Shown in pieces: positions 1 through 62,887 of a DNA stretch of 64,000 bases. This stretch comes from Streptomyces sp. ERV7. Its GTDB lineage: Bacteria > Actinomycetota > Actinomycetes > Streptomycetales > Streptomycetaceae. The stretch's first letter is position 1. Every line of letters begins with the position of its first letter. The DNA lies in the NCBI RefSeq assembly GCF_001653515.1, contig NZ_LYOY01000029.1:558001-622000 (forward strand). The letters run 5' to 3'. The position numbers were made by a program, and so were the translations under genes. Under the pieces are notes generated by a model, which was given only the letters and a program-made list of their open reading frames with translations, made no database searches and was not told where the DNA came from.

Positions 1-8
1 AGTTCACC

Positions 9-176
9 TGCGGGCCGGTGGAGGGTTGCTCGCGCCGTTCCCCGCGCCCCTCAATCGCCCGGGGGCATCCGCGGGTTGAGTTGGGCTGGTCGCGCCGTTC
101 CCCGCGCCCCTGGAGGGCGCATCGGCGCTGGGCAACCCCAACCCCGTAGGGGCGCGGGGAACTGCGCGAGCAACCA
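9..176. repeat. cluster of dispersed inverted-repeat arms
   Basis: Three copies of the same ~28-bp arm lie at 24-51 and 84-111 (direct) and 148-175 (inverted). The shared core is GTTCCCCGCGCCCCT or its complement. The last two form a large imperfect hairpin just upstream of the ABC operon. The same arm recurs near 3.9, 16.0 and 60.7 kb. No gene is seen in bases 1-295. Confidence 0.8.
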
Positions 177-295
177 CACTCAACCTGCGGATGACCCCCG
201 GCCGCAGACAACCGACCCGCCAGGACATTTGTCCCGCCCAACCCCGTACAAGAACATCTGCCGGGCACCGGGGCCCGATCCGTAGCGTCAAGGAC

Positions 296-1255
296 ATGAC
301 GCAGACAGCACCGAGCGCCCCGGCCGCCGTAAGCCTCACCCACGTGGTCAAGGCCTACGGCTCCGTACGGGCAGTCGACCGTATCGACCTCGACATCCGC
401 CGGGGCGAAACCGTCGCCCTGCTCGGCCGCAACGGCGCCGGCAAGTCCACCACCATCGGCCTCCTGCTCGGCCTCGACGAGCCGGACGCGGGCGAGGTGC
501 GGCTCTTCGGCCGCACGCCGGAGCGGGCGGTACGGGCCGGGCTCACCGGGGCGATGCTCCAGGAGGGGCAGCCGATCCCCCGCGTCACCGTACGGGAGCT
601 CATCGCGTTCGTCGGCTCGACCTACCCCGAGCCGATGCCGGTCGACGAGGCGCTGGCGCTCGCCGGGCTCACCGGCTTCGCGGACCGCCGGGTCGACAGG
701 CTCTCCGGCGGCCAGGCCCAGCGCGTGAGGTTCGCGGTGGCGATCGCCGGGGCGCCCGCGCTGCTGGTCCTGGACGAGCCGACCGCCGCACTCGACGTGG
801 CGGCGCGCCGAGCGTTCTGGGACGCGATGCGCAGCTACGCGGCCCGGGGCAACACCGTGCTGTTCTCCACCCACTACCTGGAGGAGGCGGACGACAACGC
901 CGACCGGATCGTGGTCGTCGACCAGGGCCGTGTCGTGGCCGACGGCCCCGGCGAGCGGATCAAGCGCGCGGCCGGCGGCAGCCTGGTCTCCTTCGACCTG
1001 GCGGGCGGCCCCAGCGCGGGCCTGGCCGCGCTGCCGGGCGTGGTCTCGGTCGAGGTGCGCGGCGACCGCGCCCGGCTGCGTACGGACGACTCGGACGCCA
1101 CGGTCGTGGAGCTCGCCCGGCGCGGCGCGGTCCGGCGCCTCGAAGTCGCCCCGGCCAGCCTGGAGGACGCCTTCCTCTCCCTCACCTCCACCGTCTCCCC
1201 GACCGCCACCGCCACCGCCACCGTCGGCTCCGTACGCGAAAGCGAGACCGTCTGA
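296..1255 (+). CDS. ABC-2 type transporter ATP-binding protein
   Basis: This is the ATP-hydrolysing subunit of an ABC-2 type exporter at the inner face of the membrane. From the ATG at 296 it has 319 residues: Walker A GRNGAGKS at 44-51, Q-loop near Q89, signature LSGGQ at 136-140, Walker B LLVLDEP at 156-162 and switch His193. The C-terminal ~100 residues are the usual variable extension. An upstream in-frame ATG at 191 would add residues encoded by repeat-rich leader, so 296 is preferred. Its stop overlaps the permease start (TGATG), and a histidine kinase and response regulator follow in the same operon. That resembles ABC systems whose TCS senses envelope or membrane state. The substrate cannot be read from the sequence. 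Confidence 0.93.
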   Translation: MTQTAPSAPAAVSLTHVVKAYGSVRAVDRIDLDIRRGETVALLGRNGAGKSTTIGLLLGLDEPDAGEVRLFGRTPERAVRAGLTGAMLQEGQPIPRVTVRELIAFVGSTYPEPMPVDEALALAGLTGFADRRVDRLSGGQAQRVRFAVAIAGAPALLVLDEPTAALDVAARRAFWDAMRSYAARGNTVLFSTHYLEEADDNADRIVVVDQGRVVADGPGERIKRAAGGSLVSFDLAGGPSAGLAALPGVVSVEVRGDRARLRTDDSDATVVELARRGAVRRLEVAPASLEDAFLSLTSTVSPTATATATVGSVRESETV

Positions 1256-1980
1256 TGCTCGGCTACATCACGCTCGAAATCCGGCGCACCCTCCGCGACG
1301 CGTCCTTCGTGATCTTCGGTATCGGGATGCCGGTGCTCATGTACCTCCTCTTCACCAACATCGGCTCGGGGGGCGGCGACTCGGCCGACTGGAAGGCCGC
1401 ATCGATGGTCGGCATGGCCGCGTACGGGGCGCTCGGCGCGTCGCTGAACGCCGGTGGCCAAGTGGCCTCCGACAGGAGCGCGGGCTGGCTGAGGCAGCTG
1501 CGGATCACCCCGCTGGCGCCGTCCCGGGTGGTGGCGGGCCGCGCGGTCAGCGGCTCGGCGACCGTGCTGCCGGCCGTCCTCGCGGTGCTCGCGGCGGGCG
1601 CGCTCGTCAACGGCGTACGCCTGGAAGCCTGGCAGTGGGCGGCGCTCGCGCTGCTGCTGTGGGCCGGGGCGCTCCCCTTCACCCTGCTGGGCCTCGGCAA
1701 CGGCTACCGGCTGAGCCCGCAGGCCATGGGCGTGGTCAATGTGGCGTGTCTGATGGGGCTCGCGGTGCTCGGCGGACTGTGGTTCCCGCTCTCCTCCTTC
1801 CCCCACTGGCTCGCCTCGATCGCCGCGTACAGCCCGGCCCACCGGTTCGGGGACCTCGGCTGGGCGGTCTCGCACGGCTCGGCCCCCGGACTCGGGACGG
1901 TCGCGGTGCTCGGCGGCTGGCTGCTGGCGTTCGGCTCGTACGCCGTGGTCTCCTACCGACGGTCCGCGAGGGCCGTGTGA
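1255..1980 (+). CDS. ABC-2 type transporter permease
   Basis: This 241-residue integral membrane subunit pairs with the preceding ATPase. About six hydrophobic segments are visible, including IFGIGMPVLMYLLF near the N terminus and VNVACLMGLAVLGGLWFPLSSFP, the latter typical of the ABC-2 family C-terminal half. The start codon overlaps the ATPase stop by one base and the stop overlaps the kinase GTG, so the genes are translationally coupled. Length and topology are normal for the family. Substrate unknown; drug, lipid or peptide export are all possible. Confidence 0.92.
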   Translation: MLGYITLEIRRTLRDASFVIFGIGMPVLMYLLFTNIGSGGGDSADWKAASMVGMAAYGALGASLNAGGQVASDRSAGWLRQLRITPLAPSRVVAGRAVSGSATVLPAVLAVLAAGALVNGVRLEAWQWAALALLLWAGALPFTLLGLGNGYRLSPQAMGVVNVACLMGLAVLGGLWFPLSSFPHWLASIAAYSPAHRFGDLGWAVSHGSAPGLGTVAVLGGWLLAFGSYAVVSYRRSARAV

Positions 1981-3248
1981 GCACGATGAACGGGGAGAAC
2001 GAGACAGTGGCGCCCAGCCTGCCGAAACTGCCGGAGCTACCGAAACTGCCGGAGCTGCCGAGGAGGAGCGAGCGGGACGCCGACCTCGCCGGTCCCCCGG
2101 CGAACGGCTACGCCCTGCTGCCCTGGCTCCTGATGGGCCTGGGCGCGTTCTCCAACCTCGTCGAGGGCAGGACCCCGAACCCGTGGATCGGGGGCGCCGG
2201 GCTGCTGGCCTTCAACTCGCTCTACGTCACGGTCGCCTTCCGCGCCTTCGACAAGGAGAAGCGCGAGAGCCGCGCCACGCTCGCGGCCCTGGCCGCGATG
2301 GCCGCGATCACCTACGCGCTGACCCTCCTTTACGGCGGCACCTGGCTGTTCTTCTTCCCGCTGCTCTCGCTGGCCTGCGGCGCGGTGCTGCGGGACCGCA
2401 GGCTGGGCCTGGTGATCATGGTCCTGGCGAGCTCGGCGGGCGCCATCTCCGGCATGGAGGCGGGCGAGGTCTGGGACAACGTGACCATCGCGTACGGCAC
2501 GTTCCTCTCCGGCATGGTGACGGCGGCGGTCCTCTCGCTCTCCCAGACCGTGCGCGAACTGCGCGACACCCGCCAGGAGCTGGCCCGTACCGCCGTGGAG
2601 AAGGAACGTCTCCGCTTCTCCCGGGACCTGCACGACCTGCTCGGCCACACGCTCTCGGTGATCGTGGTGAAGTCGGAGGCGGCCCGCCGCCTCGCCCCGC
2701 GCGACCTGGACGCCGCGCTCGGCCAGGTCGCCGACATCGAGTCGGTCGGCCGCCAGGCGCTCACCGAGATCCGCGAGGCCGTCACCGGCTACCGCGAGGG
2801 CAGCCTCGGCACCGAGCTGGACCGGGCCCGCTCGGCACTGCTGGCGGCCGAAGTGGAGCCGGTGGTACGCCTGTCGGGCCCGCCGCTGCCCTCACAGGTG
2901 GAGGCGCTGCTTGGCTGGGTGGTACGGGAGGCGGTCACCAACGTCGTACGGCACAGCGGGGCGGCCCACTGCGAGATCGTGGTCGACGGCGCGCCCGAGC
3001 GGGTACGGCTGAAGATCACCGACGACGGGCGCGGCGTACCATCCGAACAGCCCGTCGCCCCCGGTCCACGCATCGGCGGCACGGGCCTGAAGGGTCTCAC
3101 CGAACGCCTCGCGGCGGCCGGCGGCTCACTCGAAGCGGGCCCCGGGCCGCGCGGCGGCTTCCAGGTGAACGCCGAGCTCCCGGTCGACCCGCTCGACGCC
3201 GAGCTCGAAGCGGAGCTGGAGACCGAACGCGGGGTCGCACGGGGATGA
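1977..3248 (+). CDS. sensor histidine kinase, DesK/NarX-type (HisKA_3)
   Basis: This is a membrane sensor kinase that should phosphorylate the adjacent response regulator. The 423-residue product starts at a GTG overlapping the permease stop (ATG at 1986 is the alternative). After a short Pro-rich repeat (PKLPELPKLPELP, residues ~16-28) come four to five hydrophobic segments between ~45 and 190. A dimerisation helix with H-box RDLHDLLGHTL (phospho-acceptor His219) follows, then a HATPase_c domain with DDGRGV and the GGTGLKGL glycine box. The extracytoplasmic part is minimal, so sensing is probably within the membrane, as in DesK-like kinases. Operon position suggests it controls the ABC exporter; the signal is unknown. 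Confidence 0.92.
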   Translation: MSTMNGENETVAPSLPKLPELPKLPELPRRSERDADLAGPPANGYALLPWLLMGLGAFSNLVEGRTPNPWIGGAGLLAFNSLYVTVAFRAFDKEKRESRATLAALAAMAAITYALTLLYGGTWLFFFPLLSLACGAVLRDRRLGLVIMVLASSAGAISGMEAGEVWDNVTIAYGTFLSGMVTAAVLSLSQTVRELRDTRQELARTAVEKERLRFSRDLHDLLGHTLSVIVVKSEAARRLAPRDLDAALGQVADIESVGRQALTEIREAVTGYREGSLGTELDRARSALLAAEVEPVVRLSGPPLPSQVEALLGWVVREAVTNVVRHSGAAHCEIVVDGAPERVRLKITDDGRGVPSEQPVAPGPRIGGTGLKGLTERLAAAGGSLEAGPGPRGGFQVNAELPVDPLDAELEAELETERGVARG

Positions 3249-3272
3249 GACCGGCACGATGGGGAGAACGGC

Positions 3273-3914
3273 ATGATCAGAGTCCTGCTCGCCGAGGACC
3301 AGGGCATGATGCGGGGCGCGCTGGCCCTGCTGCTCGGGCTTGAGGAGGACATCGAGGTGGTCGCCCAGGTGTCGGCGGGCGACAAGATCGTGTCCGAGGC
3401 GCTCGTCGCCCGGCCCGACGTCGCCCTCCTGGACATCGAACTGCCCGGCCGCAGCGGGCTCGACGCGGCGGCCGAGCTGCGCGAGGAGTGCCCCGACTGC
3501 CGGGTGCTGATCCTCACCACCTTCGGGCGGCCGGGGTATCTGCGGCGCGCGATGGAGGCGGGCGCGGCCGGGTTCCTGGTGAAGGACGGGCCGGTGGAGG
3601 ATCTGGCCGAGGCGATCCGGCGGGTGCTGCGCGGCGAGACGGTGATCGACCCGGCGCTGGCCGCGGCCGCGCTGAGCGCGGGCGCCAACCCGCTGACCGC
3701 GCGGGAGCGGGACGTCCTGAACGCCTCGGTGGACGGCGCGACGGTGGCCGACATCGCGGGCAGGCTGCACCTGTCGGAGTCGACGGTACGCAACTACCTC
3801 TCGTCGGCGATCGGCAAGACGGGCACCCGCAACCGCATGGAGGCGGTGCGGGCGGCGCGGCAGCAGGGCTGCGGGCCGGTGGGGGCTGGTCGCGCAGTTC
3901 CCCGCGCCCCTTGA
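3273..3914 (+). CDS. NarL/LuxR-family response regulator
   Basis: This DNA-binding response regulator is the partner of the preceding kinase. The receiver domain has acidic residues E8-D9, phospho-acceptor D54, T82 and K104. The LuxR-type HTH spans about residues 140-195 (LTARERDVL...LSESTVRNYLSSAIGK). It starts at an ATG after GGGAGAA. The last ~14 residues (GPVGAGRAVPRAP) are not part of the family: they are translated from the dispersed repeat arm at 3869-3911, which also provides the stop codon. The native C-terminus was probably near ARQQG. The expected target is the ABC operon. Confidence 0.93.
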   Translation: MIRVLLAEDQGMMRGALALLLGLEEDIEVVAQVSAGDKIVSEALVARPDVALLDIELPGRSGLDAAAELREECPDCRVLILTTFGRPGYLRRAMEAGAAGFLVKDGPVEDLAEAIRRVLRGETVIDPALAAAALSAGANPLTARERDVLNASVDGATVADIAGRLHLSESTVRNYLSSAIGKTGTRNRMEAVRAARQQGCGPVGAGRAVPRAP

Positions 3915-4055
3915 GAGCCTGGGGCTGCGCCCCGGCTCCCAAAGACGTCCGCCCCGGGACCATTTGGTCCCGGGGCAGACGCACTACCTACGGGGCGCGA
4001 GCGTCCCCGGGTCAGACCATCCCCCTAAGGGGCGCGGGGAACCGCGCGACCAGCC
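3869..4055. repeat. long inverted-repeat element between convergent genes
   Basis: The left arm at 3869-3911 and the inverted right arm at 4028-4055 belong to the same family as the repeats at 0, 16.0 and 60.7 kb. The left arm overlaps the 3' end of the response regulator. A separate strong hairpin (3951-3976) lies between the arms. The element occupies the gap between two convergent genes. Confidence 0.85.
3951..3976. terminator. bidirectional hairpin terminator
   Basis: GCCCCGGGACC (3951-3961) pairs perfectly with GGTCCCGGGGC (3966-3976) around a 4-nt loop. It lies between the ends of the response regulator (plus) and the sedolisin gene (minus), so it can serve both. No U-tract, as is usual in Streptomyces. 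Confidence 0.75.
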
Positions 4056-4089
4056 ACAGACGGCCCGCGGGCAAAGGCCGGGCTAAAAA

Positions 4090-15970: not shown

Positions 15971-15990
15971 GAATGGGGTTGTTCGCTGTC

Positions 15991-16120
15991 CGCGGGCCGT
16001 CCCCAACCGGTCGCGCAGTTCCCCGCGGTAAAGGCCTATGGCTGAGCTGGATTCTCCGGCTGCGACCAACGCCCTGAGGGGCGCGGGGAACTGCGCGCCC
16101 AGCCCACCACCGGCCCGCAG
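15991..16120. repeat. long inverted-repeat element (degenerate left arm)
   Basis: The left arm at 15991-16028 is diverged or shortened. The right arm at 16077-16120 is intact. The 48-bp centre shares CTGAGCTGG and TTCTCCGGCTGC with the copy at 60.69-60.74 kb, showing that the whole element is homologous and not only its arms. It sits between the phosphoesterase promoter region and the 3' end of glnE. Confidence 0.85.
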
Positions 16121-16134
16121 CCGCCCCCAAAGCG

Positions 16135-59694: not shown

Positions 59695-59700
59695 CGTGCG

Positions 59701-59838
59701 CTGCCCGTCGGGGTGTACCGGGAAGTCGGGCGGAAGTTCGGCAGGTACTGGGACGTGGCCTGGTTCCAGAGGCCGCTGCGGACCGCCGGAACCAGTCCTC
59801 TTCCCGGTGCCGGTGTGCTCGGGTCAGAGGCCGTTTGA
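59701..59838 (+). pseudogene. C-terminal remnant of a GNAT acetyltransferase
   Basis: In the frame starting at 59701 the DNA reads LPVGVYREVGRKFGRYWDV, continuing AWFQRPL and a short tail to a TGA at 59836-59838. G-x-Y-R-E-V-G-x-K-F-G-R-x-x-D-V is the classic C-terminus of phosphinothricin-type GNAT acetyltransferases. The other ~130 residues are missing; the epoxide hydrolase stop lies 6 bp upstream. The remnant overlaps the 3' end of the zinc-ribbon gene by 15 bp, as an ancestral convergent pair might. Confidence 0.75.
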
Positions 59839-60606
59839 GCTGGACCGGCCGAAGAACTCGACCTCCGCGATGGCGACCTGCTTGTCGCCGGAGGCCGCGT
59901 AGGCCGACTCGACCGTGAGGCGGACCCGGACGGCGTCGCCGACGCGGAAGGGGCGGCGCTGGCCGCCCGCGCCCTGGTCCAGGGTGATCTCGCGGGTCGT
60001 GGTCTTCCCGTCCTTCGTCAGCACCGTCGCCTTGATGCGGTGCGGCAGCGCCGAGCCGCCCAGCTTGTCCGCGCGCGCGGAGACACCGGGGGTGATGATC
60101 ACGTCCAGCAGCCGGGTGGGCTCGGTGAAGTTGAACTCGATCCACTCCCCCCGGCCCGAGTCCGAGACACCCGGACCCCACCAGGTGTTGCTGCGCTTGT
60201 CGATGGCGAGCTGCGGCTGGTGACCACCGTAGGAGTGGGAGGCCCGGACGCCGTCCGGCGCGACGGGGGCACGCTTGGCGAAGTGGTCGCGTACGGAATG
60301 GACGCCGTCGGGGATGTAGACGACGCCGAGGATGACGAGGGTCACGGCGAGCGCCGCACCGACCCAGGTGCCGATGCGGTCGAACACGCGGCGCAGCGGC
60401 GGCCGTTCCCCGGCCCAGGGAGTCTCGCTCCGCCGTCCGAAGAGCCGACGCCACCAGGGAAGGTGGGCGGGAGGCTGTGCGGCCTCGTCGGCGAGGGGCA
60501 TCGCACAGCGGCCGCAGAAGTGGCGGTCGGGGCGGTTGGGGGTGGAACACCAGCGGCACGGCGGGCCACCGCGACCGAAAGGTTCTGATTTGCGCCCGGC
60601 CTTCAC
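59824..60606 (-). CDS. zinc-ribbon, membrane-anchored discoidin-like protein
   Basis: 260 residues: an N-terminal zinc ribbon with two CxxC pairs (CRWCSTPNRPDRHFCGRC), a basic linker and one TM (VGAALAVTLVILGVVYIP, ~80-97). An external F5/8-type-C (discoidin) carbohydrate-binding-like domain follows (GGHQPQLAIDKRSNTWWGPG...GEWIEFNFTEPTRLLDVIITPG). GTG at 60606 lies inside repeat-like sequence, so the true start may be slightly downstream. Comparable proteins occur across actinobacteria; function unknown. Confidence 0.82.
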   Translation of the reverse strand: MKAGRKSEPFGRGGPPCRWCSTPNRPDRHFCGRCAMPLADEAAQPPAHLPWWRRLFGRRSETPWAGERPPLRRVFDRIGTWVGAALAVTLVILGVVYIPDGVHSVRDHFAKRAPVAPDGVRASHSYGGHQPQLAIDKRSNTWWGPGVSDSGRGEWIEFNFTEPTRLLDVIITPGVSARADKLGGSALPHRIKATVLTKDGKTTTREITLDQGAGGQRRPFRVGDAVRVRLTVESAYAASGDKQVAIAEVEFFGRSSSNGL

Positions 60607-60646
60607 CTGCGGGCCGGTGGGGCCCCTTCTGGGCCCGGTGTTTGTC

Positions 60647-60779
60647 TGCGGGCCGGTGGTGGGCTGGTCGCGCAGTTCCCCGCGCCCCTAAAAGCCTGTG
60701 GCTGAGCTGGGTTCTCCGGCTGCCGCCAACCCCCTCAGGGGCGCGGGGAACTGCGCGAGCAACCCACCACCGGCCCGCA
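60647..60779. repeat. best-preserved copy of the long inverted-repeat element
   Basis: Two 43-bp arms (60647-60689 and 60737-60779) are inverted copies with only two mismatches, around a 47-bp centre. The 133-bp element could fold into a very long hairpin. A partial extra copy of the outer arm (TGCGGGCCGGTGG) is at 60608-60620. It lies between two minus-strand genes. Confidence 0.9.
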
Positions 60780-60844
60780 CACGAACTCCGGGCCAGAAAG
60801 GGGCGCCGGGACGCGGGCGAGCCACGGGTGCGAGAGGGGCGCGC

Positions 60845-61069
60845 TCAGTCCTCCGGGCCGGAGGCCTTGTCGTGCCACTTCGGGTCCGTCTCCCACTCCA
60901 GGTTGCGCTCCTGGGCGGTCTGCATCGCGTGCTCCGCCTCCTCACGGCTCGCGTAGGGGCCGAAGCGGTCCTTCGCGGGGCACTCCGGGCCCTCCTCGAC
61001 CTTGGCGTGGACCAGGCAGTAGTACCACTCGCCCGGTTTGCCGGCCGTGCGCTTCTTGAACAGGGCCAT
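60845..61069 (-). CDS. small conserved protein of unknown function
   Basis: 74 residues ([56 protein letters not shown]...). The compact charged sequence with WYYC and a C-terminal helix is conserved among streptomycetes as far as I recall. ATG at 61069 has GGAG upstream. The two Cys and the [13 protein letters not shown] turn suggest a small folded domain. Divergent from map. Confidence 0.75.
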
Positions 61070-61146
61070 ACGGAGGCTCCTTCCTCGGCCCGTCCTCGGG
61101 CCTTCTCGACCATGCTGCCCCAACGCGGCTCGATAGACTCGCCGGC

Positions 61147-62004
61147 ATGTCCGCCCAGTCGCTGCTCGTACCAGGGGAGCTCTCTCCCACCCGCTCCGTC
61201 CCGGGGAACATCCGCCGCCCCGAGTACGTCGGGAAGCCCATGCCCACGCCGTACACCGGCCCCGAGGTGCAGACCGCCGAAACGATTGAGCTCATGCGGA
61301 TCGCGGGCCGTATCGCCGCCCGCGCGATGGAGGAGGCCGCCAAGCTCATCGCGCCCGGCGTGACCACCGACGAGCTCGACCGCGTCGCGCACGAGTACAT
61401 GTGCGACCACGGCGCGTACCCCTCGACGCTGGGCTACCGGGGCTTCCCCAAGTCCCTGTGCAGCTCGGTCAACGAGGTCATCTGCCACGGCATCCCGGAC
61501 TCCACCGTCCTGAACGACGGCGACATCGTGAACCTCGACGTCACCGCGTACATCGGCGGCGTGCACGGCGACAACAACGCCACCTACTTCTGCGGCGATG
61601 TCGACGAGGAGTCGAAGCTGCTGGTCGAGCGGACCCGGGAGTCCCTCAACCGCGCCATCAAGGCGGTCAGGCCGGGCCGCCAGATCAACATCATCGGGCG
61701 CGTCATCGAGTCGTACGCCAAGCGGTTCGGCTACGGCGTCGTGCGCGACTTCACCGGGCACGGCATCAGCACCGCCTTCCACTCCGGCCTGATCGTGCCG
61801 CACTACGACGCGCCGCACGCCACCACCGTGATCAAGCCGGGGATGACCTTCACCATCGAGCCGATGCTGACGCTGGGGACGCACGAGTACGACATGTGGG
61901 AGGACGGCTGGACGGTCGTCACCCGCGACCGCAAGCGGACGGCCCAGTTCGAGCACACCCTGGTGGTGACCGAGACCGGCGCGGAAATCCTCACGCTGCC
62001 CTGA
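61147..62004 (+). CDS. map: methionine aminopeptidase type I
   Basis: A 285-residue metalloprotease that removes initiator Met. Metal ligands are seen in order: Asp in [20 protein letters not shown] (two Asp), His in [13 protein letters not shown], Glu in FTIEPML and Glu in QFEHTLVVT. The N-terminal ~40-residue extension ([21 protein letters not shown]) is the actinobacterial MapB-like form with a PxxP-type linker. Start ATG 61147. Streptomyces carry more than one map; this copy is not the one in the ribosomal cluster. Confidence 0.95.
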
Positions 62005-62778: not shown

Positions 62779-62795
62779 CGGGGGCCCGGAGTTTG

Positions 62796-62887
62796 TCTGC
62801 GGCGCCGTCGTGGCTGGTCGCGGTGCGCTTCGCGAGGCCCGGTTTTCGTCTGCGGCGCCGTCGTGGCTGGTCGCGGTGCGCTTCGCG
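62796..62887. repeat. two identical 39-bp direct repeats
   Basis: Copies at 62796-62834 and 62849-62887 are identical (start TCTGCGGCGCCGTCGTGG) and 53 bp apart. They contain a GGCTGGTCGCG core like the dispersed inverted-repeat family, so this may be a related, rearranged element. The copies fill the gap between heme oxygenase and the convergent PhzF gene. Confidence 0.8.

Follow-up and report, generated by a model that had tools for sequence, protein, structure and literature searches.

Results

The element at 60.7 kb and its relatives in the window

The window analysed in this study is the whole stretch of 64,000 nucleotides (G000:C29:558001-622000) from a 7.1-Mb Streptomyces genome, designated G000, and it carries at 60.7 kb a palindromic element made of two inverted units, in which R denotes the core AGGGGCGCGGGGAACTGCGC on the plus strand and F its reverse complement. 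The F arm, tail plus core, occupies 60647-60689 on the minus strand (core 60670-60689), as located by direct reading, inverted-repeat search and core scan. It is followed by a 47-nt loop with a small internal hairpin (60690-60736), delimited by aligning 11 F-loop-R copies chosen for having this loop, and by the R arm on the plus strand (60737-60779), which begins with the core AGGGGCGCGGGGAACTGCGC at 60737-60756 and continues into a C-rich tail. The near-perfect inverted arms of 43 bp that the original prediction described are indeed present, with 41 of 43 positions matching. Beyond them the inverted repeat reaches outwards through a left extension (60619-60646) and a right extension (60780-60807) to span 60619-60807, with arms of 71 nt that are 87% complementary around the 47-nt loop. 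The predicted RNA fold of this copy has a free energy of -115.1 kcal/mol, with a z-score of -13.7 relative to shuffled sequences. A scan of 59700-61300 for terminators with a T tract returned a single site against 0.6 expected, at 60620-60636 in the left extension and so outside the 43-nt arms. No Rfam family matched at its gathering score across the window, and the three weak matches at 60.5-60.9 kb all fall far under the cut-off. In relatives no core was found near the right-hand flanking gene, apart from one 4-mismatch match at the end of locus L076; gene order differs there, and hence this comparison does not serve as an empty-site test.

The related copies predicted at 0-0.18, 3.87-4.06 and 15.99-16.12 kb all proved real by direct reading and inverted-repeat search. 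Positions 1-202 hold the right end of an array (cores F at 32-51 and 92-111, R at 148-167); three further F units precede the window, so that the array comprises six units, five F and one R, and starts 158 bp ahead of the window. Positions 3871-4068 hold an F..R copy between convergent genes, with cores at 3892-3911 (F) and 4028-4047 (R) and a loop of 114 nt. The 16.0-kb copy (15990-16122) combines a truncated F unit (16013-16027) with a full R core (16077-16096), and its internal sequence is, as claimed, the same loop as at 60.7 kb. The varied placement noted earlier also holds, with copies in tandem gaps (60.7 and 16.0 kb), between convergent genes (3.9 kb) and between divergent genes (0.1 kb). 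Two tandem units of 53 bp at 62783-62887, found by repeat search, resemble the tail by eye (CTGCGG..GGCTGGTCGCG) and lack the core; they are possibly diverged relatives of the repeat.

A constant core word found across the Streptomycetaceae

The constant part of the repeat family is a core of 20-21 bp, AGGGGCGCGGGGAAC-N-GCGCG, which in Streptomyces is followed by a looser C-rich tail (about GACCAGCCMCCACCGGCCCGCAG) to make up the unit. Core positions other than N are at least 90% conserved and tail positions less so among copies with at most 2 mismatches, a selection by which the conservation of the core is partly built in. In the 11 F-loop-R copies the core is invariant in both arms, again with the N position aside. 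Mismatch counts, scored without gaps at 19 fixed positions, are bimodal, and half-decayed copies are therefore few: copies with 0, 1, 2 and 3 core mismatches number 88, 13, 2 and 3 in G000, 46, 23, 3 and 4 in the genome G125, and 31, 7, 1 and 1 in the genome G144.

The core is abundant. The 800 kb around the window contain 104 cores with at most 3 mismatches in 34 clusters, compared with 0 or 1 core in each of three order-3 Markov shuffles. The whole G000 genome has 248 exact 21-mers (none for the reversed pattern) and 317 cores with up to 2 mismatches (control 2). Duplicate segments of G000 were kept in the 800-kb count and in the orientation and neighbour counts, and removed for the analyses of arm similarity, mismatch spectrum and placement. 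Beyond G000, the exact core was found in 75 of 121 sampled Streptomycetaceae genomes, representing 10 of 17 genera, and was lacking from the other 46, while none of 137 sampled genomes from other families of the class had it. In a class-wide sample the 8 of 148 genomes with an exact core were all Streptomyces, 8 of the 11 members of that genus sampled. A BLAST search with the window copy matched 186 of 295 Streptomyces genomes, and BLAST matches to this copy often end at identical points. A plasmid or phage origin was rejected: the ten plasmid records that match are all from Streptomyces and carry 29-38% of the element, and phage records gave no match.

Arrays, polarity and doublets

Units occur singly or as direct arrays, with a period of about 61 bp in G000 and of 34, 41 and 72 bp in G125. 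A CRISPR array was ruled out, as the whole 61-bp unit repeats and unique spacers are absent. Polarity is fixed in the Streptomyces data: among 136 neighbours within 250 bp, a count whose G000 part includes duplicated segments, 40 are FF, 57 RR, 39 FR and none RF. Single-orientation clusters make up 50 of 87 (11 of 34 in G000, 18 of 27 in G125 and 21 of 26 in G144). A different arrangement is found in G489, G410 and several genomes of genus g12, which have R..F doublets of fixed length (56 or about 109 bp). Twelve of 16 doublets in G489 measure 56 bp, and all 16 from G437, G492 and G462, like most from G410, measure 108-112 bp; the places in these five genomes were picked because listings showed pairs, which biases the share of R..F. 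Five stretches of G413 (100 kb, picked as copy-rich) gave 8 FR and 8 RF. The core is thus common across genera and the compound palindromes are lineage-specific, given fixed R..F doublets outside Streptomyces and F..R within it. Two kinds of sequence, approximately gggcatccc and gggccaaccac, recur as outer flanks of the G489 doublets (L328-L338), frequently one on each side of the R..F cores, which hints that the unit of this genus may be longer and asymmetric.

Retention and turnover between sister species

G125 and G144 are syntenic sister species whose aligned pieces are mostly 80-93% identical, with 27 and 26 clusters per 500 kb, respectively. G125, a genome of the same genus as G000, aligns with S. 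tauricus at 92-94%, by which that genus is identified as Streptomyces. Among 194 syntenic gaps, 19 are occupied in G125 and 20 in G144; 12 are occupied in both against 1.96 expected (p 1.1e-9), 7 in G125 only and 8 in G144 only. Orthologous copies are therefore retained, with gains or losses, and filled and empty sites exist among relatives, as the original prediction had proposed to check. The standard core is missing from 15 partner gaps. Four of them have a long-core variant, in which the AACT middle is swapped for a longer hairpin (..CTGTGACATATGCGGCTCCGCCGCGTGG..) with both sides conserved, and 1 has a core at one edit; the other 10 have nothing nearer than 5-7 edits, as in unoccupied gaps. 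By the same strict pattern, adopted because a looser one produced false matches, the long core occurs in 0 of 167 unoccupied gaps in G125 and 1 of 167 in G144. Some form of unit is thus present in both species at 17 of 27 occupied gaps, and these variants in 5 of 15 partner gaps strengthen the case for retention and weaken that for invariance of the middle of the core. Sites of the long-core variant include L120 near 11.1 kb, the purM gap of G144 and G125 near 4992657.

One of the 12 shared gaps has opposite orientations in the two species. In the 11 others the core has 0 mismatches to the consensus in 19 of 22 copies and 1 mismatch in 3, and identity between the species is 57% upstream, 68% in the tail and 63% in the outer flanks. 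The corresponding values for non-orthologous units are 51, 57 and 51%, and the references are 51% for random genomic sequence and 73% for unoccupied intergenic sequence. This divergence near the element (57-68% versus 73%) fits re-insertion at favoured gaps and local array turnover equally. Arrays grow or shrink at shared gaps, with 8 versus 2, 5 versus 1 and 3 versus 1 units, and the invariance of the core could stem from rapid turnover or from gene conversion instead of selection.

Variable array length would also fit a repeat with no role at all, in which copies of a GC-rich word arise by slippage and by ectopic recombination and gene conversion keeps them uniform; so would several segmental duplications that end at units in the contig of the window. 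We consider this explanation highly improbable: 10 genera have the 21-mer without any change, the genera compared have tails and loops of their own, and conversion within a genome would not hold a word constant from one genus to another. The segmental duplications of G000:C29 lie at 554108-561871, 624664-640473, 648144-652065, 666902-674539 and 695553-712270, one of which contains positions 1-3871 of the window. Six duplication pairs end at units; they measure 3.5-5.9 kb, are 97.6-100% identical and have direct or inverted orientation. Over all ten pairs, 16 of 40 endpoints lie within 115 bp of a core; for comparison, a distance of 80 bp or less from a core is found for about 2% of random positions. 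Recombination at the units would account for such ends, and so would misassembly of repeats.

Individual gaps illustrate the turnover. In the best-matching 30 loci related to the lsr2 gap, which follows an lsr2-like gene, scored for the standard core, 3 carry F units and 27 do not; the carriers G125, G048 and G144 (3, 2 and 1 F units) are the three closest genomes in a comparison in which 131 of 391 genomes were unscored. Several empty loci (L202, L207, L209, L216, L219) have a terminator-like hairpin; the carriers (L191-L193) lack its left half, as if the array had replaced it there, which favours a transcriptional role. The purM gap has a core in 5 of 80 loci and the long-core form in one more (L120), and a separate hairpin is present in all 80, the 6 carriers included.

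Position at gene ends and the contribution of the hairpin

Using genes predicted with our own simple codon-model caller, we placed 84 deduplicated clusters: 4 within predicted genes, 41 in tandem, 31 in convergent and 8 in divergent gaps. The background of gaps of at least 100 bp comprises 483 tandem, 137 convergent and 246 divergent ones, so that convergent gaps are favoured over divergent ones (odds ratio 7.0, p 1.6e-7). Of the 41 clusters in tandem gaps, 36 lie closer to the upstream stop than to the next start (p 8e-7), with median distances of 57 and 161 nt, respectively. The clusters are thus biased towards gene 3' ends, a preference also shown by REPs of enterobacteria. Single-orientation clusters in tandem gaps show a weak strand preference (19 F-sense, 9 R-sense, p 0.087).

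Such a position suggests a bidirectional RNA element whose F..R hairpin would terminate transcription, or block 3'-5' decay, on both strands. The bias to gene 3' ends and convergent gaps, the strong hairpin of the F..R copy, the position of the lsr2 array where several relatives have a terminator-like hairpin, and a 57-nt median that is near the medians of 66-76 nt between coding sequence and transcript end given for Streptomyces in the available part of PMC12207403 are all consistent with it. Against it, the folding appears confined to places where F and R meet, as neither single units (z -0.26 and 0.03) nor a direct array (z +1.28) fold better than their shuffles, and single-orientation clusters are, as given above, the larger share. 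When up to 5 edits are allowed, 18 of 50 single-orientation clusters have a core of the opposite orientation no more than 200 bp away, and so do 18 of 50 random stretches. Nor do the arms seem to evolve as a pair. The similarity of F and R arms within G000 clusters does not exceed that of shuffled pairs, 279 of 500 shuffles giving at least the observed value; the corresponding counts are 112 of 500 in G144 and 30 of 500 in G125, where the arms tend to be more alike than shuffled pairs. The alignment of 11 copies has two-sided changes in 4 of 54 pairs, with a slightly unfavourable covariation term of +0.81. A co-varying long stem was accordingly set aside, the arm shuffles and these few two-sided changes giving it little support. 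The 43-nt arms, furthermore, are not followed by a T-rich tract, the one terminator-like match of the scan, against 0.6 expected, lying in the outer extension; the purM gap keeps a hairpin of its own whether or not it carries a unit; and divergent genes flank 8 of 80 intergenic clusters. Taken with the empty sites, the last two observations agree with the earlier view that the copies are not simply terminators; the original prediction would have taken them for terminators if copies had no empty sites among strains and always mapped to transcript 3' ends, and empty sites exist. We therefore regard a 3'-end RNA element as an unlikely explanation. The suggestion of a structured RNA survives in part, as a long hairpin does form where F and R meet, and is at odds with the slight covariation and with the 50 clusters of a single orientation. 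It is the core sequence that seems to be preserved, the long hairpin being probably secondary.

Known Streptomyces terminators, including those lacking a U tract, likewise have GC-rich stems at 3' ends according to the available parts of PMC8269248 and PMC8780764, in which the core is not mentioned. The element differs from the terminators described there in having no T tract after its arms, in often consisting of single, weakly folding units and in that it can adjoin a separate hairpin.

Search for a transposase and comparison with known repeats

If the repeat were a selfish non-autonomous mobile element of the REPIN or MITE kind, the inverted cores would be the ends recognised by a transposase acting in trans, and spread, instead of a function for the host, would explain how many copies there are and why their cores are identical. 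Several observations agree with this: F-loop-R copies at different G000 loci have a common loop, BLAST matches end alike, fixed-length R..F doublets recur in other genera (in places chosen from listings), and sites are filled or empty, with the lsr2 gap filled at only 3 of the 30 loci compared, all from the closest three genomes. The RAYT-type Y1 transposase (PF01797), however, is absent from G000, G125 and the genome G014. It was found in 5 of 16 genomes of a first set (G144, G243, G290, G263, G110), with a higher share among the 7 chosen as copy-rich (4) than among the 9 chosen as copy-poor (1), a grouping which rested on first-look numbers. In 13 further copy-carrying genomes it was present in 3 (G489, G435, G505) and absent from 10, including G413 with its 485 exact copies, which brings the total to 8 of 29 genomes searched. 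None of 22 Y1 loci, searched mostly over 1.5 kb on each side, has an adjoining core. A link to RAYT was accordingly rejected as unsupported.

Traces of insertion were sought in the polymorphic gaps. Inspection by eye revealed no target-site duplication in 14 slot alignments, which cover 14 of the 15 polymorphic G125/G144 gaps, or in 41 flanked doublets; these gaps and the lsr2 gap offer no clean case of a precise insertion site with target duplication, and no pair compared has a clean empty site. Between L111 and G125, the candidate gap carries other DNA in each. Few half-decayed copies, the keeping of the core by orthologous copies, and a polarity and length of doublets that vary by lineage, so that one mobile unit cannot explain all of them, weigh in the same direction, and we find a mobile element doubtful. 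The repeat resembles MITEs in being short, non-coding and dispersed, with inverted repeats and a common internal sequence; the MITE suggested in the original prediction is nevertheless unsupported, as no target-site duplication was seen in the sites inspected and neither a linked transposase nor a parent transposon was found in a search directed at the Y1 family.

The other family proposed, REP/BIME, fares better. As described in the available part of PMC3733652, the REPs and BIMEs of enterobacteria are likewise palindromic, 20-40 bp long, intergenic and present in high copy in arrays, and the proposal is borne out by the short intergenic palindromic arrays and the filled and empty sites found here. 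It is contradicted by the lack of Y1, of a GTAG or CGTC tag and of alternating orientation. The GTAG tag, sought in the core plus 8 nt on each side, occurs in 6 of 103 units in G000 and none in G125 or G144, and CGTC in 3 of 103, 7 of 72 and 2 of 39, respectively; the background is 0.115 per 36-mer for GTAG and 0.473 for CGTC, and neither is enriched at the core. Relative to the same partial account (PMC3733652), the Streptomyces repeat thus differs from GTAG-tagged REPs in having neither tag nor, in G000, a RAYT; from BIMEs in an orientation that is F^n R^m only instead of alternating; and from REPs generally in that the single unit is a weak hairpin and one core word extends across 10 genera. 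The REPINs of Pseudomonas, as presented in the available part of PMC3116915, likewise consist of two inverted units with a variable loop in tandem clusters, a likeness strengthened by the fixed-length doublets in other Streptomycetaceae genera. Compared with that description (PMC3116915), however, no RAYT partner was found, doublet polarity varies by genus, and the arms in Streptomyces multiply singly, whole doublets never occurring in succession. The repeat is therefore REP-like in the way it works, but membership of the RAYT-driven REP/REPIN class is unsupported, because features which define that class were tested for and not found.

No description of the repeat was found by keyword in the open-access literature, and core strings had no match in open-access full text; they may be noted in subscription literature. 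The repeat is likewise not described in the available portions of the literature on Streptomyces Term-seq, on REPs and repeats and on the S. coelicolor transcription map.

Discussion

This study describes a REP-like dispersed repeat of the Streptomycetaceae, two inverted units of which make up the copy at 60.7 kb. We give about an even chance to the explanation that its core is a putative protein-recognised site. On this explanation, the core would be a sequence-specific site that most likely binds a putative DNA-binding, chromosome-organising or transposase-derived protein, and such sites would lie mostly downstream of genes. Local tandem duplication would multiply units into arrays, with the periods of 34, 41, about 61 and about 72 bp, and new gaps would gain units by rarer insertion or ectopic recombination. 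Where two units meet head to head a long hairpin would result, which may, as a side effect, stop transcription or shield RNA ends. Judged from sequence comparison, the near-constancy of the core in family-wide and orthologous copies points to selection on it. The long-core variant counts against this explanation, as it shows the middle of the core to be replaceable in orthologous gaps.

A more specific proposal, which we offer tentatively, is that the core is the binding site of a putative sequence-specific protein of the Streptomycetaceae acting at hundreds of gene ends. The possible roles of such a protein include chromosome folding, the handling of supercoils between convergent genes and the protection of transcript ends, through which it might influence DNA topology or transcription. 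Two sites would then be joined in ways that differ by lineage, through the strict F..R polarity of Streptomyces and through R..F doublets in other genera.

What this repeat means for its hosts is of interest because Streptomyces is a main source of antibiotics. A 21-bp word that has 248 exact copies in one genome, occurs in ten sampled genera of the family and stays in place at orthologous gaps whose flanks have diverged needs a cause, and the core offers an exact probe with which a binding protein could be fished out directly. REP-like repeats occur here in genomes that lack the transposase held responsible for REPs elsewhere, and the usual account of how REPs spread therefore does not carry over to these bacteria.
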